Shown piece by piece: positions 49,809-64,000 of a DNA stretch of 64,000 bases. Under the pieces are notes generated by a model, which did not search any database, had not been told where the DNA came from, and saw only the letters and a list, made by a program, of their open reading frames with translations. Location: NCBI GenBank assembly GCA_018333865.1, contig JAGXSE010000023.1:1-64000 (forward strand), in the 5' to 3' direction. The translations under genes and the position numbers were made by a program. The DNA is from Syntrophomonadaceae bacterium (lineage in GTDB: Bacteria; Bacillota; PH28-bin88). The stretch's first letter is position 1, and every line of letters starts with the position of its first letter.

Positions 49809-51260
49809 ATGCAAGTTCTGTTTGCAGCTGCCGAGGCGTCTCCACTGGTTAAAACCGGCGGACTGGGAGATGTGGCGTATGCTTTGCCGGCAGCCTTAAA
49901 AAAACTGGGTGTTGAGATCAGGATCATTGTCCCTAAATACAGTGCCATTCCGGAAAATATCCGCCGGGAAGCCAAACCCCTGGCCCGTTTTTATGTGCCC
50001 CTGGCCTGGCGCAACCAGTACTGCGGGCTGGAGGAACTGGATTGGGACGGCTTGAAATACTATTTGCTGGATAACGAGTATTATTTCAAACGTGACCATC
50101 TCTATGGCTACTACGATGAAGCCGAGCGCTTTGCCTTTTTTTGCCTGGCAGCCAGGGCCAGTTTAGCCCATCTCGGCGGGTTCAAGCCAGACATCCTGCA
50201 CTGCAACGACTGGCACACAGCCCTGATGCCCCTCTTGCTTAAGGTGGCACACTTGGGAGCCGGTTATGCAAATAGTATAAACACTGTTTTAACAATCCAT
50301 AACCTGAAGTACCAGGGCATCTTCCCCAGGGAGGTGCTGGGGGACATTATCGGCCTGGGAGATGAATACTTCACACCTGATAAAATGGAGTTTCACGGGG
50401 CAGTCAATTACCTGAAGACAGGCCTGGTCTATGCGGATTGCCTGACAACTGTCAGCCCGACCTATGCCCAGGAAATCCAGACCCCTTTCTTGGGGGAAGG
50501 GCTGGACGGGATTTTGCGGGCAAAAAAAGATCGCTTGCAGGGGATCTTAAACGGTATTGACTACAGCAAATATAACCCGGAGACAGATCCCCATGTCTTT
50601 TTTCCTTACCGTGGCTCCCTCTACAAGAAGGAAGAAAACAAGCTTCAGCTGCAGTCGCTCTTGGGCCTGCCTGTGGCCAGGGGAGTGCCGCTTTTGGGGA
50701 TAGTTTCCCGCCTGGTGGAACAGAAGGGCTGGGATTTACTGGCCCCTGTCCTCAATGAAATCCTGGCCCTTGATCTGCAAATAGCAGTGCTGGGGACAGG
50801 AGAAAAAAAATATGAAGAGATGTTTAATTATTTTGCGGCAAGCTACCCGCAAAAGCTGGCTGCCAGATTCACCTTCAATGAGGAGCTGGCCCACCAGATC
50901 TATGCCGGGGCCGACCTGTTCCTGATGCCTTCCCGTTTCGAACCCTGTGGCCTATCCCAGATGATCGCCATGCGCTATGGGACTGTGCCTTTAGTGAGGG
51001 AAACCGGCGGCTTGAAGGATACGGTCATTCCATATAATCAGTATACCGGGGAAGGAAACGGCTTTAGCTTTGCCAACTACAATGCCCACGAACTCCTGTT
51101 CACAGTCCAAAGGGCGGTGAAGATTTACCGGGAAGAAAAGGCTGCCTGGAAGGGACTGGTGCAAAACGCCCTGCAGGCTGACTTCAGTCAGGAAAAATCG
51201 GCCCAAAAATATCTTGCGGTGTACCAGCAACTAGGAAGAACGAGGGTAGCCAATGATTGA
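49809..51260 (+). CDS. glgA: Glycogen synthase (ADP-glucose)
   Basis: A 483-residue GT5 glycogen synthase that extends alpha-1,4-glucan. ADP-glucose-binding KTGGLGDV (residues 15-22), CNDWHTALMPL, TIHNLKYQG, and the C-terminal MPSRFEPCGLSQMIAMRYG and RETGGLKDTV motifs. Full length. Its end overlaps the following amylase-type gene by 8 nt. Confidence 0.96.
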   Translation: MQVLFAAAEASPLVKTGGLGDVAYALPAALKKLGVEIRIIVPKYSAIPENIRREAKPLARFYVPLAWRNQYCGLEELDWDGLKYYLLDNEYYFKRDHLYGYYDEAERFAFFCLAARASLAHLGGFKPDILHCNDWHTALMPLLLKVAHLGAGYANSINTVLTIHNLKYQGIFPREVLGDIIGLGDEYFTPDKMEFHGAVNYLKTGLVYADCLTTVSPTYAQEIQTPFLGEGLDGILRAKKDRLQGILNGIDYSKYNPETDPHVFFPYRGSLYKKEENKLQLQSLLGLPVARGVPLLGIVSRLVEQKGWDLLAPVLNEILALDLQIAVLGTGEKKYEEMFNYFAASYPQKLAARFTFNEELAHQIYAGADLFLMPSRFEPCGLSQMIAMRYGTVPLVRETGGLKDTVIPYNQYTGEGNGFSFANYNAHELLFTVQRAVKIYREEKAAWKGLVQNALQADFSQEKSAQKYLAVYQQLGRTRVAND

Positions 51261-54200
51261 TCTAGCAGTAGAACATAACTCCCACAGCCTGTTTTACCGC
51301 AATCCCTTTGGCGCCGTTACCTGCGGCCAGAAGGTTATCTTCAGGCTAAAAACCCGGGCACCCCACCCGGTCAAAGAATGTTTTTTGCGGGTATGGGAAA
51401 AAGGGGAAGAGGAGCGGCTCTTGCCCATGGTGATCAGGCCGGAAACCGGAGACACGGACCCGCTGGAGCAGGTTTTTACAGTCGAATATCCTGCGCCGGA
51501 CGATCCCGGCCTGGTCTGGTATTGCTTTATCATCAAGACGGAGCGCCAGACCTGGTTTTACGGGAATAATAAGGAGTTGTCAGGAGGAGAGGGCGAGCTA
51601 AAAACCAGCCTGCCACCGTCCTACCAGCTTACTGTCTACCGGACTGCCGGCAAGGCTTTGGCGTGGTATCAACAGGGGGTGATGTACCAGATTTTTGTGG
51701 ACCGTTTTGCTAACGGCAATGAACAAGGCCTGGTCTGCCATCCTAAACCCAAAAGCCTGATCCATGGTGACTGGAATGACACCCCATTTTATCTCAAGGA
51801 TGCAAAAGGCCGGGTCACCCGCTGGACATTTTTTGGGGGTAACCTGGCAGGTGTCATGCAAAAACTGCCCTATTTAAGAGAGCTTGGCATCAGCGCTATC
51901 TATTTCAATCCTGTCTTCGCATCCGCCAGCAACCATAAATACGATACCGGGGACTATTTAAAGATTGATCCCATGTATGGGGATGAGGAGATCTTCGCCT
52001 GCCTGATCCGGGAAGCTGGCAAGTACGGCATTGCCGTCATTCTCGACGGCGTGTTCAGTCATACCGGGAGCGACAGCATTTATTTCAACAAAAAGGGCAG
52101 CTACCCCAGCCTGGGGGCTTTCCAGTCCCCGGACTCTCCTTATTTTAACTGGTACCGGTTTTCAGGCTCCCGGGAAAAATATGACTGCTGGTGGGGAGTG
52201 GAGGACCTGCCCAATGTCAACGAGAACGAGCCGTCCTACCGGGATTTTATCTTAACAGGGGAAAACAGCGTTGTAAAGTACTGGATGAGAAAAGGGATTA
52301 AGGGCTGGCGGCTGGACGTTGCCGATGAACTTCCAGATGAATTTATCAAGACTCTGCGCCAGACAATGGCGGAAACCGATCCCGATGCGGTCCTGATCGG
52401 GGAGGTCTGGGAAGACGCTTCCAACAAGATCAGCTACGGCAAGCTGCGGGAGTATTTGTGGGGGGAGGAACTGGACGGGACGACGAACTACCCTTTCCGC
52501 AGCATCTTCCTGGACTATCTTTTGGGCAAATCCGACGCTTTCACGGCGCACCGCCGGATAATGAGCCTGTACGAAAACTATCCCCGGGAGCACTTTTATC
52601 GAGCGATGAACCTTTTGGGTTCCCATGACACCATCAGAATTATGACTTTGCTGGGAGAGGCTCCGCCGGCGGAAAGCTTGTCAGAAATAGAACGGGAAAA
52701 TTTCCGTTTGCCCCGGGAGGCCAGGGAGCTGGCCGTAAAAAGGCTGCGGCTTTTTTCACTGGTGCAGATGGCCTTTCCGGGGGTCCCCTGCATTTATTAC
52801 GGGGACGAGGCAGGGGCGGAAGGTTATGCCGACCCTTACAACCGGGGGACCTACCCCTGGGGCAGGGAAGACCGGGAACTTTTGGATTGGTACCGGAAAA
52901 TTGTTAAGATCCGCCGGGAGTACCAGGTGCTGCAGACAGGGGAATTCGCGTCTCTTCCTGGGGATCAGGATGTTTACGGCTTCAGGCGTGCCGATAAAAA
53001 CGAAGAAATTATCCTGGTTATTAACCCCAGTCTTTGCCTGGAAAAAGAGATTCTGATCCGGTTTGCCCTTCCGGAAGAAGGTTTAAGGGTAGAAGCGGCA
53101 GGAAAGTCAGGAGAAAAGGCCTGGGTGGCGCTGGAATTACTGAGTGGGGAACAGATCCCAAACGCAGCCGGCGGGTTTCTGGCAAGGCTTAAGCCCTTGG
53201 AGGGCAAACTGTTTTACTGCCGGGAAAGAGACGTTTCCCTGGTTCCCAGGCTTGAACGCTCTTGCGGGGTCCTTTTGCATCTAACTTCCCTTCCTTCCAG
53301 GTGGGGCATCGGAGATCTGGGGGAAACGGCTTTCCGGTTTGCCGGTTTCCTGGCGGAGGCAGGGCAAAGTCTCTGGCAGATCTTGCCCTTAAATCCTGTT
53401 GGCCCGGGCTTTTCCCCCTTTCAGAGCGACTCCGCCTTTGCGGGGAACCCGCTTTTAATCAGCATCGATTGTTTGATCAAGGAAGGATTGCTGGCTGCAA
53501 AGGAGGCGGAAAGGGAACTGGAAAGCATGGCCCCTTTTTTTGCGGACACCCAGGTAAATTTCCCCGCTGTATTCGAGTTAAAAGAAAAACTGTTGCGCCG
53601 GGCTTTCGAGTTTTTTCAAGTTAAAATTGACCAGGCCCGATGGGAGACACCGGCAGAAAACCGGCAGGGTTACCTGTCGTGGCCAAACTATAGCCGGTTT
53701 CTAGCAGAAAACAATTGCTGGCTGGAAGACTATTGCCTTTATCAAGCATTGAAAAAATATCACGGCGGCTTGCCCTGGCAGGAGTGGGAAAAAAATGCCG
53801 CCTGCAGGGACAGGGAAACTCTTGCGAAATTCCGCAAAGCCTTGGCCGGAGAAATTGCCTACCAGCAGTTTTTGCAGTATATCTTTTTTACCCAATGGGC
53901 AAATTTGCGAAGTTATGCCCGTGCTCAAGGCATCAGCTTCATTGGCGATCTGCCCATTTACGTGGCGGCAGACAGCTGTGATACCTGGGTACACCGCGAG
54001 CTGTTCGAGCTGGATGAGGCGGGTTGGCCCCTGAAAGTTGGCGGAGTTCCCCCTGACTACTTCAGCCAGGACGGCCAGTTGTGGGGGAACCCCCTCTATA
54101 ACTGGAATAAAATGGCCAGCGAAAAATTCTCCTGGTGGACGGAGCGCATCCGGCAGGCCTTGCAGCTGACAGACTATCTTCGGCTCGATCATTTCCGGGG

Positions 54201-54780
54201 TTTTGAGGCCTACTGGGAGATCCCGGAATCCGCCAGTACGGCTGCCCAGGGCAGGTGGATCAAGGGCCCGGGGAAAGAATTTTTTGCGGCAATGGCCAGG
54301 GAGCTGGGCAGCCTGCCCTTGATTGCCGAAGACCTGGGCATGATCACCCCGGAGGTAAAGGTTTTGAAAGAGATCTTTGGGTTTCCCGGGATGAAGGTCT
54401 TGCAGTTTTTAACCGCAGAAAGCCTTGATCAAAAGCGGCAATCTGAGCAGGAGGTCTACTATACCGGGACCCACGATAACGATACCCTTTGGGGCTGGTA
54501 TCAGAAGAACATTATCGCCGGTTTGCGGCCGCAATACCTTGATCCCCAAACAGTCTGCCGGGATTTTATCACAACTGTTTACAACAGCAAATCAGCCTGG
54601 GTGATCATTCCCCTGCAGGACATCCTGGGTTTGGACAGCAGAGCCAGGATGAACACCCCGGGAACTGCGGCCGGAAACTGGGGCTTTAGAATGCCAGAAG
54701 GATCATTGACCGCGGAGATAGTTTCTTTCCTTAAGGAAGCTTCCCTGCAATCCGGCAGGGCTGCCGTGACTTCCACCTGA
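51253..54780 (+). CDS. GH13 alpha-amylase / GH77 4-alpha-glucanotransferase fusion
   Basis: A 1175-residue two-enzyme protein without a signal peptide. Residues 1-120 are a neopullulanase-type N-domain; 135-650 form a GH13 barrel with GWRLDVADE (nucleophile Asp near 353), LIGEVWED (Glu near 384) and LLGSHDTIRI (near 459). From about 665 a complete GH77 amylomaltase follows: LLHLTSLPSRWGIGDLG, GPGFSPFQSDSAFAGNP, YLRLDHFRG (nucleophile near 978), LIAEDLGMITPEV and TGTHDNDTLWGWY. It would hydrolyse and rearrange malto-oligosaccharides released from glycogen, supplying chains GlgP can use. All catalytic residues of both modules are present. Confidence 0.94.
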   Translation: MIDLAVEHNSHSLFYRNPFGAVTCGQKVIFRLKTRAPHPVKECFLRVWEKGEEERLLPMVIRPETGDTDPLEQVFTVEYPAPDDPGLVWYCFIIKTERQTWFYGNNKELSGGEGELKTSLPPSYQLTVYRTAGKALAWYQQGVMYQIFVDRFANGNEQGLVCHPKPKSLIHGDWNDTPFYLKDAKGRVTRWTFFGGNLAGVMQKLPYLRELGISAIYFNPVFASASNHKYDTGDYLKIDPMYGDEEIFACLIREAGKYGIAVILDGVFSHTGSDSIYFNKKGSYPSLGAFQSPDSPYFNWYRFSGSREKYDCWWGVEDLPNVNENEPSYRDFILTGENSVVKYWMRKGIKGWRLDVADELPDEFIKTLRQTMAETDPDAVLIGEVWEDASNKISYGKLREYLWGEELDGTTNYPFRSIFLDYLLGKSDAFTAHRRIMSLYENYPREHFYRAMNLLGSHDTIRIMTLLGEAPPAESLSEIERENFRLPREARELAVKRLRLFSLVQMAFPGVPCIYYGDEAGAEGYADPYNRGTYPWGREDRELLDWYRKIVKIRREYQVLQTGEFASLPGDQDVYGFRRADKNEEIILVINPSLCLEKEILIRFALPEEGLRVEAAGKSGEKAWVALELLSGEQIPNAAGGFLARLKPLEGKLFYCRERDVSLVPRLERSCGVLLHLTSLPSRWGIGDLGETAFRFAGFLAEAGQSLWQILPLNPVGPGFSPFQSDSAFAGNPLLISIDCLIKEGLLAAKEAERELESMAPFFADTQVNFPAVFELKEKLLRRAFEFFQVKIDQARWETPAENRQGYLSWPNYSRFLAENNCWLEDYCLYQALKKYHGGLPWQEWEKNAACRDRETLAKFRKALAGEIAYQQFLQYIFFTQWANLRSYARAQGISFIGDLPIYVAADSCDTWVHRELFELDEAGWPLKVGGVPPDYFSQDGQLWGNPLYNWNKMASEKFSWWTERIRQALQLTDYLRLDHFRGFEAYWEIPESASTAAQGRWIKGPGKEFFAAMARELGSLPLIAEDLGMITPEVKVLKEIFGFPGMKVLQFLTAESLDQKRQSEQEVYYTGTHDNDTLWGWYQKNIIAGLRPQYLDPQTVCRDFITTVYNSKSAWVIIPLQDILGLDSRARMNTPGTAAGNWGFRMPEGSLTAEIVSFLKEASLQSGRAAVTST

Positions 54781-54861
54781 TGGGGGGATTAAAGTTTAAC
54801 CCGGCGAAGCATTATAACGAGGCGATTGTTTAAATCAATAATCCAAGGAAGGAGTGGACGG

Positions 54862-56550
54862 ATGAACATCCTGATTGGCGGCGCGGCCGGAGACGGGATG
54901 GAAACCATTGCCCACCTGCTGGGCAAGACCTTTGCCCGTGAAGGCTACGGTGTACTGACTACCAAAGACTATATGTCGCGGGTCCGCGGCGGCCACAATT
55001 TTTCTTTGTTGCGGGTGGGGACAAAAACCCCCTGGGCTGCCGCTGCCACCGTGGACATCCTGGTGGCTTTAAACGAAGAAACCTATCTCTTGCATCGGGA
55101 AAGACTACTGCCAAACAGCCGGATAGTCTACGACCCGGAATTGTTTGGCATACCGTCTGCAGATGAGCGAGGCTTGCCAATCAGCCTCAGGGCATTGGCT
55201 CAGGCCTCTGGCAACAAAATTATGGCCAATACGGTAGCCACCGGAGCGGTATTATCAATACTCGGGATGGAACTGACAGAAGCAAACCGCTTGCTGGCAG
55301 AGACCTTTGCCCCGGACAAGGCCCGGCAAAATACGGCTGCCCTGCAAGCCGGATATGATGCGGCAGCTAAGCTGTGCGGTAATTGCTTCGCTCTGCCACC
55401 CAAAGAACAGAGCGGAAAAGGCATTTTCCTTGACGGCAACCAGGCCCTGGGACTGGCTGCTTTGGGCAGCGGCTGCCGTTTTCTGGCTGCTTACCCGATG
55501 ACCCCCGCTACCGGCGTTTTCTCATACCTGGCCGGCAAACAGGCGGAGTTTGGCCTGGTTGTGGAGCAGGCCGAAGATGAAATCGCTGCTGTTAACATGG
55601 CCTTAGGGGCTTCCTTTGCCGGGGCCAGGGCCATGACCTGCACCTCCGGCGGCGGCTTCGCCCTGATGGCGGAAGGGCTGTCTCTGGCCGGGATGACGGA
55701 AACCCCACTTGTCATCATCGTAGCCATGCGTCCCGGGCCGGCTACCGGCCTGCCTACCCGCAGCGAGCAGGGGGATTTAAATTTTGTCTTGCACGCCGGC
55801 CACGGGGAGTTTCCAAGAGCGGTGCTCTGTGCCACCCATCTGGAAGACGCTTTTTACCGGCTGAATAAAGCCTTCGATCTGGCTGAAAAATACCAGCTAC
55901 CTGTCATTTTCCTCTCTGACCAATACTTTGCCGATACAGCCCGGACTATTCCCCCGTACGATTTTGCCAGGCTCTGCTATGATCGCTACCTGGTCAGTGC
56001 TGAAGATTTAGTCCGCCCCTACCGGCGATACCGCCTGACAGATAGTGGGATCTCTCCGCGGGCTTTTCCCGGCCAGTTCCCGGAGGAAATGGTGCTGGCC
56101 GACAGTGACGAGCACGATGAAGACGGCCATATTATTGAAGATGCTGTTACCCGGACCCTGATGGTAAAAAAACGGCTGCAGCGTATGGAGGCATTGGCTG
56201 CCGAGATGGACGAGCCGGAACTTTACGGCCATCCGGAGCCGGAAATCCTCTTGCTTGGCTGGGGTTCCACCTGCGGGATCCTGCGGGAAGCGATTGATGC
56301 CCTGCAATCAAAGCACCACAAAGCTGCGTTGCTGCACTTCAGCGACCTCTGGCCGCTACCCAAAGTTTTGCTAACGAAATTTCTGCCTCGGGCCAAAATC
56401 AGCTTTTGCGTGGAAAACAATGCTACCGGCCAGTTTGCCGGACTGCTGCGCCGGGAAACAGGCCTGACGGTTGATCACAAGGTTCTCCAGTATGACGGCC
56501 GCCCTTTTGACAAAGACGCGATAGTCCGGGAGGTGCTAAAATATGTGTAA
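54862..56550 (+). CDS. 2-oxoacid:acceptor oxidoreductase, fused gamma-alpha subunit
   Basis: A 562-residue subunit. The N-terminal gamma domain (NILIGGAAGDGMETIAHLLG, then MSRVRGGHNFSLLRV) is fused to the pyrimidine-binding alpha domain (GNQALGLAALGSGCRFLAAY, PMTPATGV, VVEQAEDEIAAVNMALGAS). This is the 2-oxoglutarate/2-oxoacid:ferredoxin oxidoreductase layout (KorA-type). The enzyme oxidatively decarboxylates a 2-oxoacid to acyl-CoA and reduces ferredoxin. The ATG at 54862 has GGAAGGAG upstream. It overlaps the beta gene by 8 nt. No separate ferredoxin-like delta subunit is present. Exact 2-oxoacid unassigned. Confidence 0.93.
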   Translation: MNILIGGAAGDGMETIAHLLGKTFAREGYGVLTTKDYMSRVRGGHNFSLLRVGTKTPWAAAATVDILVALNEETYLLHRERLLPNSRIVYDPELFGIPSADERGLPISLRALAQASGNKIMANTVATGAVLSILGMELTEANRLLAETFAPDKARQNTAALQAGYDAAAKLCGNCFALPPKEQSGKGIFLDGNQALGLAALGSGCRFLAAYPMTPATGVFSYLAGKQAEFGLVVEQAEDEIAAVNMALGASFAGARAMTCTSGGGFALMAEGLSLAGMTETPLVIIVAMRPGPATGLPTRSEQGDLNFVLHAGHGEFPRAVLCATHLEDAFYRLNKAFDLAEKYQLPVIFLSDQYFADTARTIPPYDFARLCYDRYLVSAEDLVRPYRRYRLTDSGISPRAFPGQFPEEMVLADSDEHDEDGHIIEDAVTRTLMVKKRLQRMEALAAEMDEPELYGHPEPEILLLGWGSTCGILREAIDALQSKHHKAALLHFSDLWPLPKVLLTKFLPRAKISFCVENNATGQFAGLLRRETGLTVDHKVLQYDGRPFDKDAIVREVLKYV

Positions 56551-57391
56551 AGCAACAGATTACTTGAAAGGAGAAACAGCCTGGTGTCCCGGCTGCGGAA
56601 ACTTTGCTATCCGCCAGGCCCTGGCTGAAGCCCTGGCAGAGCTGTGCCTGCCACCCCACCAAGTTTTGCTGTGCTCCGGTATTGGCCAGGCTGCCAAGAT
56701 GCCGCACTATCTCCGGGTTAACGGCTTTAATGGTCTGCATGGGCGAGCCCTGCCCCCAGCCACTGGGGCCTTAGCCACCAATCCCAATCTGACCGTCATC
56801 GTTGCCTCTGGAGACGGCGATACTTACGGTGAGGGCGGCAACCATTTTATTCATACTATCCGGCGCAACCCAAATCTGGCCCATTTCGTCCATAATAATC
56901 AGGTTTATGGCTTGACCAAAGGGCAGGCCAGCCCGACCAGCGAACTGGGGATGAAGACAGGGGTGCAGACCGGCGGAGTCATGACACCACCCTTAAATCC
57001 TCTGGCCTTGGCCCTGGTGATGGGAGCAGGCTTTGTAGCCCGCTGTTTTTCCGGCGAAAGAAAACATCTTAAAGAAATAATGAAGGCGGCGATTGTTTTT
57101 CCCGGCTATGCCCTGATCGACATTCTGCAGCCCTGTATTACCTTTAATAAATTAAACACTTACTCCTGGTATAAAGAGCGGGTTTACCTGGTAGAAGGGC
57201 ATGACGCCAGGGATTGGCAGGCGGCCATGTCTTTAGCCCGCCAGTGGGGCGAACGGATTCCCCTGGGTATTTTTTATAGTGTCCCGGGCGCAACTTTTGA
57301 GTCCAAACTACCGGCTTTAAAAGGCGGGCCATTGGCCCTGCACCCCTTTAACCCGGCTGCCTGCGCTCATGCCCAGGACGAATTCCGCTGA
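56543..57391 (+). CDS. 2-oxoacid:acceptor oxidoreductase, beta subunit
   Basis: A 282-residue thiamine-pyrophosphate subunit. CPGCGNFAIRQALAEAL, GIGQAAKMPHYL and VIVASGDGDTYGEGGNHFIH form the TPP/Mg site, and the Cys residues near the start coordinate the cluster proximal to TPP. It pairs with the preceding gamma-alpha subunit. The operon ends at a terminator downstream. Confidence 0.94.
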   Translation: MCKATDYLKGETAWCPGCGNFAIRQALAEALAELCLPPHQVLLCSGIGQAAKMPHYLRVNGFNGLHGRALPPATGALATNPNLTVIVASGDGDTYGEGGNHFIHTIRRNPNLAHFVHNNQVYGLTKGQASPTSELGMKTGVQTGGVMTPPLNPLALALVMGAGFVARCFSGERKHLKEIMKAAIVFPGYALIDILQPCITFNKLNTYSWYKERVYLVEGHDARDWQAAMSLARQWGERIPLGIFYSVPGATFESKLPALKGGPLALHPFNPAACAHAQDEFR

Positions 57392-57568: not shown

Positions 57569-57651
57569 AGTCTATGTGCATCTATCCCGATGTCTATCGC
57601 ATTGCAAACAATAAAACGGATTGTACTGATAACGGAAGGAGTGAACGAAAC

Positions 57652-58881
57652 ATGAGATTGCATGGAAACGGGATTGTTGCCCAGTCTGGTGGCCCAACCG
57701 CAGTAATTAACAACAGCGTTTACGGGGTCATCCGGGAATGGCAGAAAACAGATGGTTTTGGCACCCTTTTCGGTGGCCTGCATGGGATTAAAGGCATCCT
57801 GCAGGAAGACTTTATCAATCTTTCCGCCCAGCAAAGCTCAGTTATCGAAGGGCTTAGATATACACCCGGTGCGGCATTGGGGTCCTGCCGCCATAAGCTG
57901 AAAGAAGAGGAATATGCCACACTGCTGCAAATCTTTAAGAAACGAAACATCAGGTTCTTTTTCTATGTCGGCGGCAATGATTCAATGGATACAGCCAACA
58001 AGGTGCACCGCCTGGCGATGAAAGAAAACTTTGACTTGAAGGTAATCGGCGTGCCCAAAACCATAGACAACGATCTGCCCTTTACCGATCACTGCCCCGG
58101 ATATGGCAGTGCTGCTAAATACGTTGCCACTACAGTGATGGAGACCGGGATCGACTTGAAAGACCTGTTGTCCAGCAACAAGGTTACCATTTTGGAAGCC
58201 ATGGGCCGCAACACCGGCTGGCTGGCAGCTGCAGCCGCCCTGGCCAAGCGGGATGAAGATGATGTGCCGCACCTGATCTATCTGCCAGAAAAGCCCTTTA
58301 AGAGAGAGAGGTTCCTGGCTGATGTAGAACACTGCTACCGGAAAATCGGCCATGTTTATGTGGTTGTTTCTGAAGGAGTGACGGACGAGAATGGCTGCTA
58401 CCTTTCTGCTGACAGCTGCCGGGATGCCTTTGGCCATGCAAAGCTGGGCGGTATCGCTGATGCCTTGAAGACCATGGTCGAGCAGGAATTAAGACTGAAA
58501 GTAAGGTCCAATGTCCTTGGCACTACCCAGCGGGCAGCAATGCACTACGCTTCCAGAACTGATGCTGATGAGGCCTGCCTGGTTGGACGCGAAGCAGTAA
58601 GACTGGCGGCCCAGGAAATGTCTGGCCTGATGGTTACTCTGGTAAGGGAGGACAAAAGGGACTATCTTACAACCCCCGGCTGTGTCGAGTTAAGGAGGGT
58701 GGCTAATACGGAGAAGAAGTTTCCCCTGGACTGGATCACCGAGGCCGGCAACTTTGTGACCAGCCGCTTTCTTGATTACGCCCGGCCATTGATTGCGGGG
58801 GAAATCCAGGTTCCCACTAAAAACGGTTTGCCGGACTATGTCCGCCTGCGCCTGGGGGAAGTCAAAACAAAAGTTTCCTGA
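57652..58881 (+). CDS. Pyrophosphate-dependent 6-phosphofructokinase
   Basis: A 409-residue phosphofructokinase of the long PPi-type clade. GIVAQSGGPTAVINNS near the start, YVGGNDSMDTANK (where Asp after GGN replaces the Gly of ATP enzymes and blocks ATP binding), PKTIDNDLPFTDHCPGYGSA and MGRNTGWLAAAAAL. PPi specificity is inferred from this Asp and from the PKTIDND motif. It commits fructose-6-phosphate to glycolysis reversibly and so suits a glycogen-using anaerobe. GGAAGGAG precedes the ATG at 57652. Confidence 0.92.
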   Translation: MRLHGNGIVAQSGGPTAVINNSVYGVIREWQKTDGFGTLFGGLHGIKGILQEDFINLSAQQSSVIEGLRYTPGAALGSCRHKLKEEEYATLLQIFKKRNIRFFFYVGGNDSMDTANKVHRLAMKENFDLKVIGVPKTIDNDLPFTDHCPGYGSAAKYVATTVMETGIDLKDLLSSNKVTILEAMGRNTGWLAAAAALAKRDEDDVPHLIYLPEKPFKRERFLADVEHCYRKIGHVYVVVSEGVTDENGCYLSADSCRDAFGHAKLGGIADALKTMVEQELRLKVRSNVLGTTQRAAMHYASRTDADEACLVGREAVRLAAQEMSGLMVTLVREDKRDYLTTPGCVELRRVANTEKKFPLDWITEAGNFVTSRFLDYARPLIAGEIQVPTKNGLPDYVRLRLGEVKTKVS

Positions 58882-58941: not shown

Positions 58942-59073
58942 GCGGCACTTTTGTTTTGTATTTCAATCGCAGAATTCAAGAGTCCCTGCTGCAATGCTTT
59001 GACACGAAGTTTCGGGTGTTCTATATTCCATTGCTCAAAGCCTCATTTCCCGTTATAATGGAAATAGCAGTAA

Positions 59074-59357
59074 TTCAACTGGGTCTTGGCTTCAGAGGGG
59101 GATTGTTACCCCCACTGAAGCTTAGAGCCAGTTAATATAGCAGCGTAACCGCTCTTATCCCACCGCCTTAATTGGGGACATTCCTGTCCCATTCAAGAGG
59201 CAAGAAGCAAGAGGCAGGTAACAGGATGGATAAGCGGCTTTTAGTCTTTACGCATCTGGCTCTTGCCTCCTGCTTCCTGCGTCCTGATTACTGGCAGGTG
59301 TGTCCCCTTTCCTTAGAAGCGGGGGTATTAGAGCGGGTAGCTGTCTATGATAAATCC
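59074..59357 (+). repeat. Structured dispersed repeat, copy 3
   Basis: The longest of three copies. The 5' stem set and the 3' TTAGAGCGGGTAGCTGTCTATGATAAA-type end (in blocks TTAGAGCGGGTAGCT and ATGATAAA) match the copies at 27521 and 38949. The insert carries GGGGACATTCCTGTCCC and a nested second inverted repeat (AGAAGCAAGAGGCAGG near 59210 with CTTGCCTCCTGCTTCCTG near 59262). It fills most of the gap 58942-59397. Confidence 0.85.
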
Positions 59358-59397: not shown

Positions 59398-61944
59398 TTG
59401 AAAATTGGCGGTATTGAGGTAGGTAGTTTGGCAGGAGCGATTAGATGGCAAAGAAAACCTAGCCAAAGCGAGAAAAGAGTGGCCCTGGGAGTGCCGCAGA
59501 GCCTCCCGGCGGTGCTGTTGCTTGGCACTGTTGCGCAAACAGGGCAGATCCTTTTTTTGCGAGAACTCTTGATGGCTTTTCACGGCAATGAATTTTTAAT
59601 CGGACTGATCCTGGCTACCTGGCTGGTCTGGGTGGGTGTGGGCAGTTACTTGGGATTATACCTGGTTCACCGGGTCGGACGTCCTTTATTCCTGTTAGCG
59701 GTAAACGCTGCCGGAGTATTGTTGGTCCTGCCGGCGACCCTCCTGGTCATGCGGAACCTGCGCCGGTTCTTTGACGTTTTTCCAGGAGCCCACCTCTCTT
59801 TGCTGGATATGGCCCTCTCCTGTTTTCTGCTGCTGGCGCCAGTTTGTCTGCTTTTAGGAGCCCAGTTTGTCTTCCTGGCGCGGGTATGGCGAGAAAAGGA
59901 AGGAACAGCTGATACCTCGAGTGCCGGCAAGACTTATGTGGGTGAAGCAGTGGGCGGAGTCTTTGGCGGGATCCTGTTCACTTTCTTGCTTGTCCATTAT
60001 TTAAATTCCTTTCAGATTGCAGTTTTGGCCGGCATCTTGATGCTTTGTGCCATCCTGTTCATGATCCCAAAAGCTGGAACGGGCATTAGTAGAGTGCCGC
60101 CCGGCTGCCGGCGGGTTTTGTCAGGCCTCCTGGCGGCGGCTGTCATCAGCTTTCCATTCCTGGCGGAGCTGGATGCTTTGGCGTATAAAGCAAAGTGGCA
60201 GCATTTCCTGCCGCAGCACCAGCTTGTCGGAACCTACCAGTCCAGGTATGGAACCATTGGAGTGGTGCGGCTGGAGGAACAGTACAGCTTCTACCAGAGC
60301 GGCAATCTGGTCATCAGCATCGCCGGCCCTGAGGCCACTGCTGCAGGACTGGAAGAGCAGGAAGCGGTAGTGTTTGCCCATTTGGCCCTGGTTCAGCATG
60401 AGAACCCGGCAGATGTCCTGCTGATTGGCGGAGGTTTGCGAGGTATCTTGCGGGAGATACTAAAGCATCCGGTGGAGAGGATTGACTACATCGAACTGGA
60501 CGCAGCTCTTATCAAAGCTGCCTGGTCCTATCTTTCCCCGGCGGCAGAAGAGGCCTTTCACGATCCCCGGGTGCGCCTGATCCATACCGACGGCAGGCTT
60601 TTCATAAAAACAGCCGCGCAAGAATATGACATGATCATTATCGATGCCCCGGAACCCGCCACTGCTGCCCTGAATCGTTACTTTACCAAAGAATTTTTTC
60701 GTGAAGCTAAAAGTCTGCTTCGCCCCGGCGGAGTTTTTGTGATCGGAGCGGCCTCCACTCCCGGCCTGAAAGGGGTTGCAGTCGCTAACCGCAACGCAAC
60801 TATCTACCATACTTTGGACGCAGTCTTTGCCCGGGTATTGACGGTTGGCGACCGGTTTATGTATTTTTTTGCTACCGACGATTCCGGCCAGATCTCCGTC
60901 GAGGCGGCAACCCTCGCCGGGCGATACACTGAGCGCAAGATCGAAGCCAAGGGTTTTTCCCCGCAGCATTATTACCTGTTGCTGCAGGAAAACCAGCTGC
61001 GGCGGGTGAACTGGATTGTCCGCAATCACGGGCGCAGTCCTGGCGCGTATTTGGCAGGGCCAAAAAGAGTGCCGCTAAACCCAGGTCCAGTAACTGAACA
61101 GGAAGCCGGGGAACACTTGCTGCCGCCAGTTGATCGAAGCCGGTTCATTAATTCCGACTTTAAACCCACCGGCTATTTTTACACCCTCATGTTTTTAGAT
61201 GAACTGGCCCGGGCCGGCTATAACAATGTATTTCAATGGCTGCTGCAGGTTAAATCTTGGTGGATACTCTTGCTTTTTACCCTGCCACTTTTTGCGGTGT
61301 TAGGATTTAAGCTTCTTGCAGGTTCCAATGGCAATAAACCCATAGCCCGTTTGGCGGTGTTGTTCAGTGTGTTTATGACCGGCTTTTCCACCATGGCCTT
61401 GCAGATTGCCCTCTTGTTTTCCTTTCAGAGCATCTACGGTTTTATTTTTGAGATGATAGGGCTGATCATGGCCATGTTCATGGGCGGGCTGGCCCTGGGC
61501 GCTTACTTAACCAGCCGGTATGTGGCAACTAAAACCCGGATCAATATCCTGGCGGGTACCCAGCTGTTGACGGCTTTGTCGGCATTTTTGGTTGCCGCCG
61601 TACTCCCGGCGGTGGCGGAAGTAAAGTCTCCTGCCGGCATCTTCGCCTTGTTTTCCGTGCTGACCTTTGGCACCGGTCTGATTAACGGGTTTAATTTCCC
61701 ACTGGCAACTGCCTGTTTGTTAACCTTGGACAGACACGCTGAAAAGTCGACTGGCGCTGTGTATGGCGTGGAACTGTTTGGGGCGTGTTTGGGAGCGATC
61801 CTTACCAGCCTGCTGATGGTCCCTATCTTTGGTATTGTCGCCAGCTGCCTGATTGCCGGTGCCGCCAATGGCGCTGCCTTTCTGACACTTTTGCTTGCGA
61901 GGAGGTCTTATCAATGGTGGCAGAAAATTCAACCAGCGGCTTGA
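59398..61944 (+). CDS. Membrane-embedded spermidine synthase-like protein
   Basis: An 848-residue protein. The N-terminal third has about six TM helices; a soluble spermidine-synthase-like Rossmann domain (VLLIGGGLRGILREIL, YIELDAALIKAA, VRLIHTDGRLFIK, YDMIIIDAPEPATAAL) follows from about 340; the C-terminal third has about seven more TM helices. Similar fused proteins are annotated as membrane spermidine synthases, but the aminopropyl-acceptor residues are not certain and another SAM-type reaction is possible. The start is uncertain: a TTG at 59398 with no clear ribosome site is the longest option, and a GTG at 59479 is an alternative. The end overlaps the radical SAM gene by 31 nt. Confidence 0.82.
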   Translation: MKIGGIEVGSLAGAIRWQRKPSQSEKRVALGVPQSLPAVLLLGTVAQTGQILFLRELLMAFHGNEFLIGLILATWLVWVGVGSYLGLYLVHRVGRPLFLLAVNAAGVLLVLPATLLVMRNLRRFFDVFPGAHLSLLDMALSCFLLLAPVCLLLGAQFVFLARVWREKEGTADTSSAGKTYVGEAVGGVFGGILFTFLLVHYLNSFQIAVLAGILMLCAILFMIPKAGTGISRVPPGCRRVLSGLLAAAVISFPFLAELDALAYKAKWQHFLPQHQLVGTYQSRYGTIGVVRLEEQYSFYQSGNLVISIAGPEATAAGLEEQEAVVFAHLALVQHENPADVLLIGGGLRGILREILKHPVERIDYIELDAALIKAAWSYLSPAAEEAFHDPRVRLIHTDGRLFIKTAAQEYDMIIIDAPEPATAALNRYFTKEFFREAKSLLRPGGVFVIGAASTPGLKGVAVANRNATIYHTLDAVFARVLTVGDRFMYFFATDDSGQISVEAATLAGRYTERKIEAKGFSPQHYYLLLQENQLRRVNWIVRNHGRSPGAYLAGPKRVPLNPGPVTEQEAGEHLLPPVDRSRFINSDFKPTGYFYTLMFLDELARAGYNNVFQWLLQVKSWWILLLFTLPLFAVLGFKLLAGSNGNKPIARLAVLFSVFMTGFSTMALQIALLFSFQSIYGFIFEMIGLIMAMFMGGLALGAYLTSRYVATKTRINILAGTQLLTALSAFLVAAVLPAVAEVKSPAGIFALFSVLTFGTGLINGFNFPLATACLLTLDRHAEKSTGAVYGVELFGACLGAILTSLLMVPIFGIVASCLIAGAANGAAFLTLLLARRSYQWWQKIQPAA

Positions 61945-63092
61945 GCCGCCGGGAGCTATTAAAAAAAGCAGGTTTAATCGGAGCCTGCGCTTTTCCTCTG
62001 GCCGGTGTCTTCGGCTGCCGCAGGGAAAAACAAGAAGAAGCCACGCCAGGGTCGACCAAAGCGGCAAGGCAGGGATTTATCAGGCCGCAGCCTTCGCCAT
62101 GGTTCAGCAGTCTTGGCCAGGCCGGGATAAAGTGCGAACTATGCCCCAGGGGGTGCCAGCTGGCGGAGGGCGCAAGAAGCTTTTGCCGGGTGCGGGAAAA
62201 CCGGGGCGGGGTGGGCCATACCCTGGTTTACGGCAACCCAGCCTTAGTGCAGGAGGACCCTGTCGAGCGCATGCCCTTTTACCATATGCTGCCAGGCAGC
62301 TGGGTCCTGTCAATTTCCACAGCGGGGTGTAATCTTGCTTGTAAGTTCTGTGAGGTCTGGGATATGGCCCTGGTGGCACCGGAGGACATCCATGCCTACG
62401 ATATGCCGCCGGAAAATGTGGTAGCTCATGCCAAGGCTTCAGGTGTGAGGGCCATCAGTTATGCTTTCGGTGAGCCGGTAGCTTTTTACGAGTATATGGC
62501 GGAAGTAGCCGTTTTGGCTAAAAAAGCGGGGCTCTTAAATCTGGTCCATACGGCCGGGTATATTCAGCCAAGGCCCCTGGAGGATCTTGCCGGCAGGCTG
62601 GATGCTGTCAATGTAGACCTGAAGGGTTTTGACCCTGCATTTTACCGGGAGATTGTGGGGGGAGAGCTTGAACCGGTGCTCAAAACCCTGAAGATGATCC
62701 GGGAAGCGGGCCTCCACCTGGAGATCACTAACGTTGTTATACCGACTCTGAATGACGACCTGGCGCAGGTGAGCAAAATGTGCCGGTGGATTGTAGCGGA
62801 ACTGGGTGCTGAAGTGCCTGTCCATTTTGCCCGTTTTTACCCCCTGTTTAAGCTTTCCGCCCTGCCGCGAACCCCGGTTTCCACCATGGACCGGATCCGG
62901 GAAACCGCTTTGGAGACAGGCCTTAAATTTGTTTATATCGCTAAAATACCCGGGCATCAAGGTGAGAATACCTTTTGCCCGGGCTGCCAAGAGATCGTAA
63001 TCAAGCGGCTGGGTTTCGTAATTGAAGAGATAAAATTAAATAACGGCGCCTGTGCCTATTGCGGCACAGCCATTCCCGGCAGGTGGATCTAA
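61914..63092 (+). CDS. Radical SAM protein with Tat/lipoprotein-like N-terminus
   Basis: A 392-residue radical SAM protein related to the AmmeMemoRadiSam / pyruvate-formate-lyase-activase-like group. The N-terminus reads SRRELLKKAGLIGACAFPLA followed by GVFGC, a twin-arginine signal with a possible lipobox. A Cys-rich segment CELCPRGCQL with a later SFCRVREN is followed by the [4Fe-4S]/SAM motif CNLACKFC near 145. C-terminal Cys pairs (FCPGC, CAYCG) suggest auxiliary clusters or metal. GAGGAGG precedes the ATG. It is coupled to the membrane protein upstream. A radical SAM enzyme outside the membrane would be unusual; the signal could also be unused. Confidence 0.88.
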   Translation: MVAENSTSGLSRRELLKKAGLIGACAFPLAGVFGCRREKQEEATPGSTKAARQGFIRPQPSPWFSSLGQAGIKCELCPRGCQLAEGARSFCRVRENRGGVGHTLVYGNPALVQEDPVERMPFYHMLPGSWVLSISTAGCNLACKFCEVWDMALVAPEDIHAYDMPPENVVAHAKASGVRAISYAFGEPVAFYEYMAEVAVLAKKAGLLNLVHTAGYIQPRPLEDLAGRLDAVNVDLKGFDPAFYREIVGGELEPVLKTLKMIREAGLHLEITNVVIPTLNDDLAQVSKMCRWIVAELGAEVPVHFARFYPLFKLSALPRTPVSTMDRIRETALETGLKFVYIAKIPGHQGENTFCPGCQEIVIKRLGFVIEEIKLNNGACAYCGTAIPGRWI

Positions 63093-63094
63093 TC

Positions 63095-63979
63095 TCACCG
63101 GATCTGGGCTAGCCGGCGGTGGACATTAAGCTGGGATAGCGATCTTTCGTCCAGGTTTGTTAAGCCGGCTGCTTTCGCCCATTCCATTGCCTCTACGAAT
63201 TCCGCCGAAGTAATTGCCCTGGCGATGGCTTCGAATTCGAAGGCTCTGAATTCCACCCGGTACTGGGACATGATGTTGACATAGGTGTCTTTTGGCAGGG
63301 TTTCAGCTACCCAGCGGACAAATTCCTGGGTCCCCGCTACCCGGTTTGGCATCACCAGGTGGCGGATCATTAGCCCGCGCAGGGCAATGCCCTTGTCATC
63401 GGTAACGACCGTGCCGACCTGGCGGTGCATCTCGACAGTGGAGGATTTTGCTTTTTCCGGATAATCACGAGCGGAGGCCTCATTAAACCGTTCTGCCTCG
63501 GCTCCCTCCATAAACTTCACGTCCGGCAGGTAAATGTCAACTATCCCGTCCAACATTTTGATATTCTCTAAACTTTCATAGCCGCTGGTATTATAGCAAA
63601 GGGGTATCCGCAACCCCTGGAGATAAGCGAGGCGGGTGGCGTTAAGTATATTTGGCATCACGTGGGTGGGTGTCACCAGGTTAATGTTATGGCATCCCTT
63701 TGCTTGCAGTTCCAGCATCAAATCTGCCAGGGTTTCGTCAGTAATTTCGCTGCCCCACCCGTAATGGGCAATGGGGTAGTTCTGGCAGAATACGCAGCGC
63801 AAGTTGCAGTTAGAAAAGAAGATGGTGCCGGAGCCATTAGTCCCAACCAGAGGCAGTTCCTCACCGAAGTGGGGTTGAGCGCTGAAGACTACCGCCTTGT
63901 TTCTGGTGCGGCAAAAGCCTTCCTGCCCCGCGAGGCGGTCTACTCCGCAGCGGCGCGGGCAGAGGGTACATGCTGCCAT
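63095..63979 (-). CDS. Radical SAM protein, PFL-activating-enzyme-like
   Basis: A 294-residue COG1313-type radical SAM protein. It opens with CTLCPRRCGVDRLAGQEGFC, the same Cys-rich block as in the preceding gene, then the SAM-cluster motif CNLRCVFCQNYPIAHYG near residue 57. It lacks the Tat signal. The gene is convergent with the radical SAM gene at 61914, with two bases between the stop codons. Such proteins are annotated as putative glycyl-radical-enzyme activases, but no glycyl radical enzyme is in the window, so the target is unknown. Confidence 0.9.
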   Translation of the reverse strand: MAACTLCPRRCGVDRLAGQEGFCRTRNKAVVFSAQPHFGEELPLVGTNGSGTIFFSNCNLRCVFCQNYPIAHYGWGSEITDETLADLMLELQAKGCHNINLVTPTHVMPNILNATRLAYLQGLRIPLCYNTSGYESLENIKMLDGIVDIYLPDVKFMEGAEAERFNEASARDYPEKAKSSTVEMHRQVGTVVTDDKGIALRGLMIRHLVMPNRVAGTQEFVRWVAETLPKDTYVNIMSQYRVEFRAFEFEAIARAITSAEFVEAMEWAKAAGLTNLDERSLSQLNVHRRLAQIR

Positions 63980-64000
63980 AATCTGGAATGTTTGCTCAAT

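Follow-up and report, generated by a model that had tools for sequence, protein, structure and literature searches.

The AmmeMemoRadiSam system, recognised by the families TIGR04335 (AMMECR1), TIGR04336 (Memo) and TIGR04337 (a radical S-adenosylmethionine (SAM) enzyme), includes homologues of human MEMO1 and AMMECR1 and is, to our knowledge, a widespread system of uncharacterised function. Radical SAM chemistry is assigned to the cytoplasm, since this compartment holds both SAM and low-potential electrons. In the open-licence literature AmmeMemoRadiSam is mentioned in just five papers, once in each, and we found no description there of exported or periplasmic radical SAM enzymes. Here we analyse two overlapping genes in a 64,000-nucleotide stretch of a Syntrophomonadaceae bacterium (assembly GCA_018333865.1, contig JAGXSE010000023.1, positions 1 to 64,000; hereafter the window): the first (59428-61944, plus strand) encodes a membrane protein with a domain resembling the spermidine synthase SpeE, and the second (61914-63092, plus strand) a radical SAM protein with an export-type N-terminus. 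In our reading, to which we give a probability of roughly 0.6, the pair represents a variant of AmmeMemoRadiSam that operates outside the cytoplasm, and we propose a mechanism for it. A first-pass annotation of the same DNA had suggested that the exported pair might form a new membrane modification system. In the literature that we searched the pair does appear to be undescribed, yet it is better placed as a variant of a named family, and the label "modification system" is a guess.

The radical SAM protein (392 amino acids) passes TIGR04337 with 326.8 bits against a curated cut-off of 220 and matches PF04055 with 79 bits. It has both hallmarks of the radical SAM superfamily, the CX3CX2C motif (Cys139, 143 and 146; 62328-62351, plus strand) and a TIM-barrel fold, and its AlphaFold2 model (mean confidence, pLDDT, 88) finds its best solved-structure match in PflA (3cb8, E 3.3e-15). 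Unlike PflA, it has no glycyl radical enzyme nearby and carries an export signal as well as two extra four-cysteine motifs on the same strand: one N-terminal (Cys74, 77, 81 and 91; 62133-62186) that is invariant in the family, and one C-terminal, CPxC...CxxC (Cys355, 358, 380 and 383; 62976-63062), which may form a zinc ribbon or hold an auxiliary cluster. Every radical SAM and accessory cysteine is retained in the window protein, the CX3CX2C and N-terminal cysteines are kept throughout the radical SAM proteins compared, and canonical and SpeE-linked enzymes share 25 invariant positions, all radical SAM cysteines among them. The same genome encodes, on contig C28, a second TIGR04337-like protein that has no signal and lies beside a Memo-AMMECR1 fusion; this is the canonical AmmeMemoRadiSam set, and the window enzyme is a second copy. 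SpeE-linked and canonical TIGR04337 enzymes split in a tree with support 100/100. The window locus departs from the canonical arrangement in that neither Memo nor AMMECR1 flanks the pair, the partner being a SpeE-like protein with 14 transmembrane (TM) helices, and in that its enzyme bears twin-arginine translocation (Tat) and lipobox features where canonical enzymes are signal-less. A search of whole genomes with PF01875 gave no match, but it is uninformative because in the genome's own Memo-AMMECR1 fusion it is LigB (PF02900) that is recognised. An orphan TIGR04337-like protein of genome G053 (L062 9412-10482), with no signal and no adjoining Memo, branches inside the SpeE-linked group, and a Bacteroidales locus (L083 4454-10496) holds three SpeE-linked radical SAM genes, one with a Tat and two with transmembrane N-termini. 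One protein of that locus, L083_8118, has lost three C-terminal cysteines.

The partner, of 838 amino acids, is modelled by AlphaFold2 as seven TM helices, a SpeE domain and seven further TM helices (pLDDT 86; predicted template modelling score, pTM, 0.89), and the hydropathy profile averaged across 42 homologues shows 14 segments. Lysine and arginine are enriched in the even loops of all 42 sequences (mean 22.2 versus 4.2); taken together, charges and model therefore predict that both termini lie inside and that the SpeE-like domain (approximately residues 265-540; 60220-61047, plus strand) lies on the outer face of the membrane. The protein passes the cut-offs of PF01564 (3.4e-30) and of NF037959, which represent spermidine synthases and fused major facilitator superfamily (MFS)-spermidine synthases, and the domain matches SpeE structures (1uir, E 4.9e-12). 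Such a fold would suit a spermidine synthase that sits in the membrane and produces polyamines for the cell surface, the radical SAM protein being its accessory activase, and membrane-bound SpeE proteins are indeed an annotated class (NF037959). However, scores fall far below the cut-offs of all spermidine synthase equivalogs, and the catalytic positions are not conserved: the first Asp of the D-x-x-D-P motif is Asp in only 5 of 42 homologues (the window protein has D406 but E409), and at the GGGD Asp position Asp is not among the listed residues (A in 21 and L in 9 of 42). This explanation would also need decarboxylated SAM and putrescine outside, in a genome that already encodes another, small SpeE homologue (G000:C1:152599), and we consider it highly improbable. 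An ordinary membrane spermidine synthase was rejected on the loss of catalytic residues. Positions corresponding in the alignment to the acidic residues with which SpeE binds ribose and adenine are kept (E356 in 41/42, D388 in 40/42); we take these and the catalytic positions to correspond to ligand contacts in spermidine synthase structures, for which a literature search gave no confirmation. N416, R417, T420, E422, F423, D401 and P580 are invariant in the family, and its near-invariant motifs NRxFTxEF and NxDxxP, together with the 7+7 TM arrangement and the outer SpeE domain, further set it apart from spermidine synthases. The domain is probably a repurposed adenosyl-binding domain (for SAM, methylthioadenosine or 5'-deoxyadenosine) with no aminopropyltransferase activity. 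A link of this SpeE-like family to the Geobacter omcS/omcT cluster, in which GSU2502 is listed as a spermidine synthase (PMC10599522), is conceivable.

How general is the pairing? A scan of genome contigs, one genome per species and seeded with the SpeE-like protein alone, returned 60 loci, mostly from metagenome-assembled genomes, which span Bacillota, Cloacimonadota, WOR-3, Desulfobacterota, Nitrospirota, Ignavibacteriota, Bacteroidota, Elusimicrobiota, Planctomycetota and others. They hold 53 long SpeE-like open reading frames (ORFs), 32 of them flanked on each side by 2.5 kb or more, and a TIGR04337, COG1313-like radical SAM and/or Memo gene lies nearby in 25 of these 32. This neighbourhood survey, which the first-pass annotation had called for, thus supports its link between an exported radical SAM protein and the membrane SpeE-like protein as a widespread, conserved gene pairing. 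When neighbouring ORFs were clustered, radical SAM and Memo proteins were the recurrent partners, followed by ABC ATPases in seven loci; no other neighbour family was as frequent, and multihaem cytochromes, considered as a conserved third neighbour, were confined to L091 and L129. Within the window's phylum, the window's genome (G000), G053 and G210 are the only ones of 399 genomes to encode a SpeE-like protein of nearly full length, and all three carry the pair. No plasmid-borne copies were found at E 1e-40. Distance matrices of the SpeE-like and radical SAM proteins correlate with r=0.90 over 19 loci (Mantel, ignoring shared ancestry), which fits co-inheritance but is also compatible with common vertical descent.

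The window enzyme begins with a Tat-type signal and lipobox, MVAENSTSGLSRRELLKKAGLIGACAFPLAGVFGC (61914-62018, plus strand). The RR motif and lipobox-like cysteine that had been noticed there are real: the arginines are residues 12-13, and Cys35 satisfies a PROSITE-style lipobox pattern (SRRELLKK...GVFGC). The sole alternative in-frame start before the first catalytic-domain cysteines, TTG 61941, retains SRRELLKK, so the protein is necessarily made with its signal segment. Orthologues in G210 (SRRQFVK...SGVAGC) and G053 (ERRKFLSK...LLLQGC) have comparable N-termini, and TatC and signal peptidase II are found in all three genomes; the window protein thus combines RR motif, hydrophobic core and lipobox cysteine with the machinery for a Tat lipoprotein, from which we infer its actual translocation by Tat. 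Of the 21 TIGR04337 partners in loci that lack Memo, 20 have Tat (10) or general secretory (Sec)/TM (10) N-termini, versus none of 28 canonical relatives drawn from the window's phylum, nearly all beside Memo-AMMECR1 (Fisher p 7e-13, ignoring shared ancestry). Since pairing, export-type N-termini and topology recur across phyla, and controls have no signal, the pair is not a matter of chance. By the first-pass annotation, orthologues lacking the RR/lipobox segment would count against its proposal, and this applies in part: half of the Memo-less ones have a Sec/TM segment, keeping the location and not the route, and a second group of loci, class B, has radical SAM proteins with no signal at all. 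Mapped on the tree, the Tat label requires 6 changes and the Sec/TM label 7, with starred branches forcing a minimum of 4 in either case. The export segment is kept while its route switches, and we therefore argue that selection maintains the outer location.

The N-terminal segment could also be an uncleaved membrane anchor with an incidental Tat-like motif, leaving the radical SAM domain facing the cytoplasm, with its SAM and low-potential reductant. The plain hydrophobic anchors of orthologues L073, L078 and L079 and the signal-less class-B orthologues agree with this, but 10 genes, some of them close relatives, have RR motifs where Tat signals carry them, lipoboxes occur in the window, G210 and G053 proteins, and L087, L092 and L102 have cleavable Sec-like peptides. 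Moreover, positive residues stand before the hydrophobic stretch, and the SpeE domain of the partner is predicted outside in 42/42. We thus find a cytoplasmic-side enzyme rather unlikely.

Class B comprises loci of Planctomycetota, Elusimicrobiota, Nitrospirota and some Pseudomonadota. In these other phyla the SpeE-like relatives adjoin Memo-AMMECR1 proteins that pass TIGR04336 and TIGR04335. Encoded beside the radical SAM gene, Memo-AMMECR1 here bears an N-terminal hydrophobic, export-type segment that canonical systems do not share, although its hydropathy is separated from controls by a narrow gap (at least 1.89 versus at most 1.77). Export as a feature of the radical SAM protein, as first proposed, thus holds in Memo-less loci, whereas related loci may export Memo-AMMECR1 in its place. 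Nine class-B SpeE proteins are long and contain the flavinylation motif [ST]GA[ST], and FMN_bind and Fer4_5 are fused to SpeE in all eight of the nine that were scanned; such fusions lie beside Memo-AMMECR1 with a hydrophobic N-terminus at L097, L098, L103, L104, L107, L115, L119 and L121. FMN_bind and Fer4_5 are domains of flavinylated transmembrane electron transfer proteins of the NosR/RnfG type (PMC8238504), and the main text of that study names neither radical SAM nor spermidine synthase. The class-B proteins differ from these in their fusion to SpeE and their link to Memo-AMMECR1 and radical SAM genes; the window protein has no such fusion. Could both exported domains then be catalytically dead, the radical SAM fold being an Fe-S or metal electron carrier and SpeE the scaffold of a membrane redox device? 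The lost SpeE catalytic residues and the class-B fusions would fit, and Sec-exported versions are unlikely to carry an active cluster easily. Against this stand the 25 invariant residues that SpeE-linked enzymes share with canonical ones, every radical SAM cysteine among them, and the conserved adenosyl-pocket positions of SpeE, and we judge two dead domains improbable.

For the proposed extracytoplasmic AmmeMemoRadiSam variant, sequence evidence supports the gene pairing and its shared descent, the export-type N-termini and the topology, as well as the retention of the radical SAM cysteines and the loss of SpeE catalytic residues. The same comparisons lend good support to the outer location of the radical SAM protein and to its partnership with the SpeE-like one. 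We envision that the PflA-like protein would receive its fold and its 4Fe-4S cluster in the cytoplasm before Tat exports it, and would then be anchored as a lipoprotein on the outer face of the membrane. Because the SpeE domain is predicted outside, both proteins would face the same compartment, and there the radical SAM protein may work with the 14-helix protein, whose SpeE-like domain would hang on the same side. The membrane protein may hold or supply a SAM-type cosubstrate (its most likely role), or it may itself be the partner acted on; the first of these is our preferred guess, and a tentative one. Electrons would cross the membrane to the outer side, as relatives fused to FMN_bind and Fer4_5 suggest, and the two proteins may form a complex. 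Put together, this could be the first radical SAM system outside the cytoplasm, with a lipid-anchored enzyme, SAM from a membrane SpeE-like partner and electrons arriving via flavin and Fe-S domains; we offer this full scheme as a possibility, and a doubtful one.

Several points weigh against the extracytoplasmic variant. It rests on sequence and models, and the signals were called by regular expressions and hydropathy only. Extracytoplasmic SAM is without a known source here. Sec-type orthologues would need to acquire their 4Fe-4S cluster outside, which is hard to square with radical SAM activity of the classical kind. A signal is missing from the radical SAM protein in class B and at L123, the sole such partner among the 21 of Memo-less loci, and seven of the 32 well-flanked loci have no partner nearby. 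Finally, the FMN/Fe-S fusions are confined to class B and absent from the window's class A, and in the window enzyme V replaces a nearly invariant N (CEVW for CQNW).

Convergent with the radical SAM gene of the pair, a second, COG1313-like radical SAM gene runs out of the window (63095-64000, minus strand). Completed from the genome (L061 7096-8187), it encodes 363 amino acids starting MGLMRRDFIKNLSLAGGAGMLFLAGAAGFLQGC, again with Tat motif and lipobox. G210 retains this convergent gene with RK instead of the RR motif, and at L074, L084, L091 and L096 a COG1313-like gene lies directly downstream of the SpeE gene. RR-type signals are present on the COG1313-like neighbours of the window and of all four of these loci; the neighbour in the class-B locus L103, encoded on the opposite strand, has no signal, and 29 COG1313-like homologues elsewhere in the phylum have no RR-type signal followed by a hydrophobic stretch.

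Both ORFs of the pair lie at the coordinates first proposed, and the reported 31-nucleotide overlap is exact (61914-61944), the radical SAM gene starting within the membrane gene. Its ATG at 61914 is served by a strong Shine-Dalgarno sequence, GAGGAGGT (61899-61906, plus strand), read directly inside the upstream ORF. For the membrane gene the start needs revision: TTG 59428, behind the Shine-Dalgarno sequence TGAGGTAGG at 59415-59423, is more plausible than TTG 59398, which would give 848 amino acids. Upstream of the pair lies a candidate sigma-70-like promoter, TTGACA-17-TATATT (58999-59027, plus strand; 11/12 consensus matches), which rests on consensus only (4 sites found versus 2.8 expected). 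The intergenic region also holds an imperfect inverted repeat, CAAGAGGCAAGA / TCTTGCCTCCTG (59194-59272), and an Rfam search found no riboswitch or other RNA element upstream of the pair. Further upstream are a 1175-amino-acid ORF, by eye an alpha-amylase-type enzyme fused to a 4-alpha-glucanotransferase (51253-54780), two ORFs that by eye encode a 2-oxoacid:ferredoxin oxidoreductase pair (54826-57391) and, after these, a diphosphate-dependent phosphofructokinase (57574-58881; NF010675).

If the extracytoplasmic reading is true, SAM or an equivalent, plus reducing power, would be used outside the cytoplasm by a widely distributed exported system. The exported variant would also give a handle on the function of AmmeMemoRadiSam.

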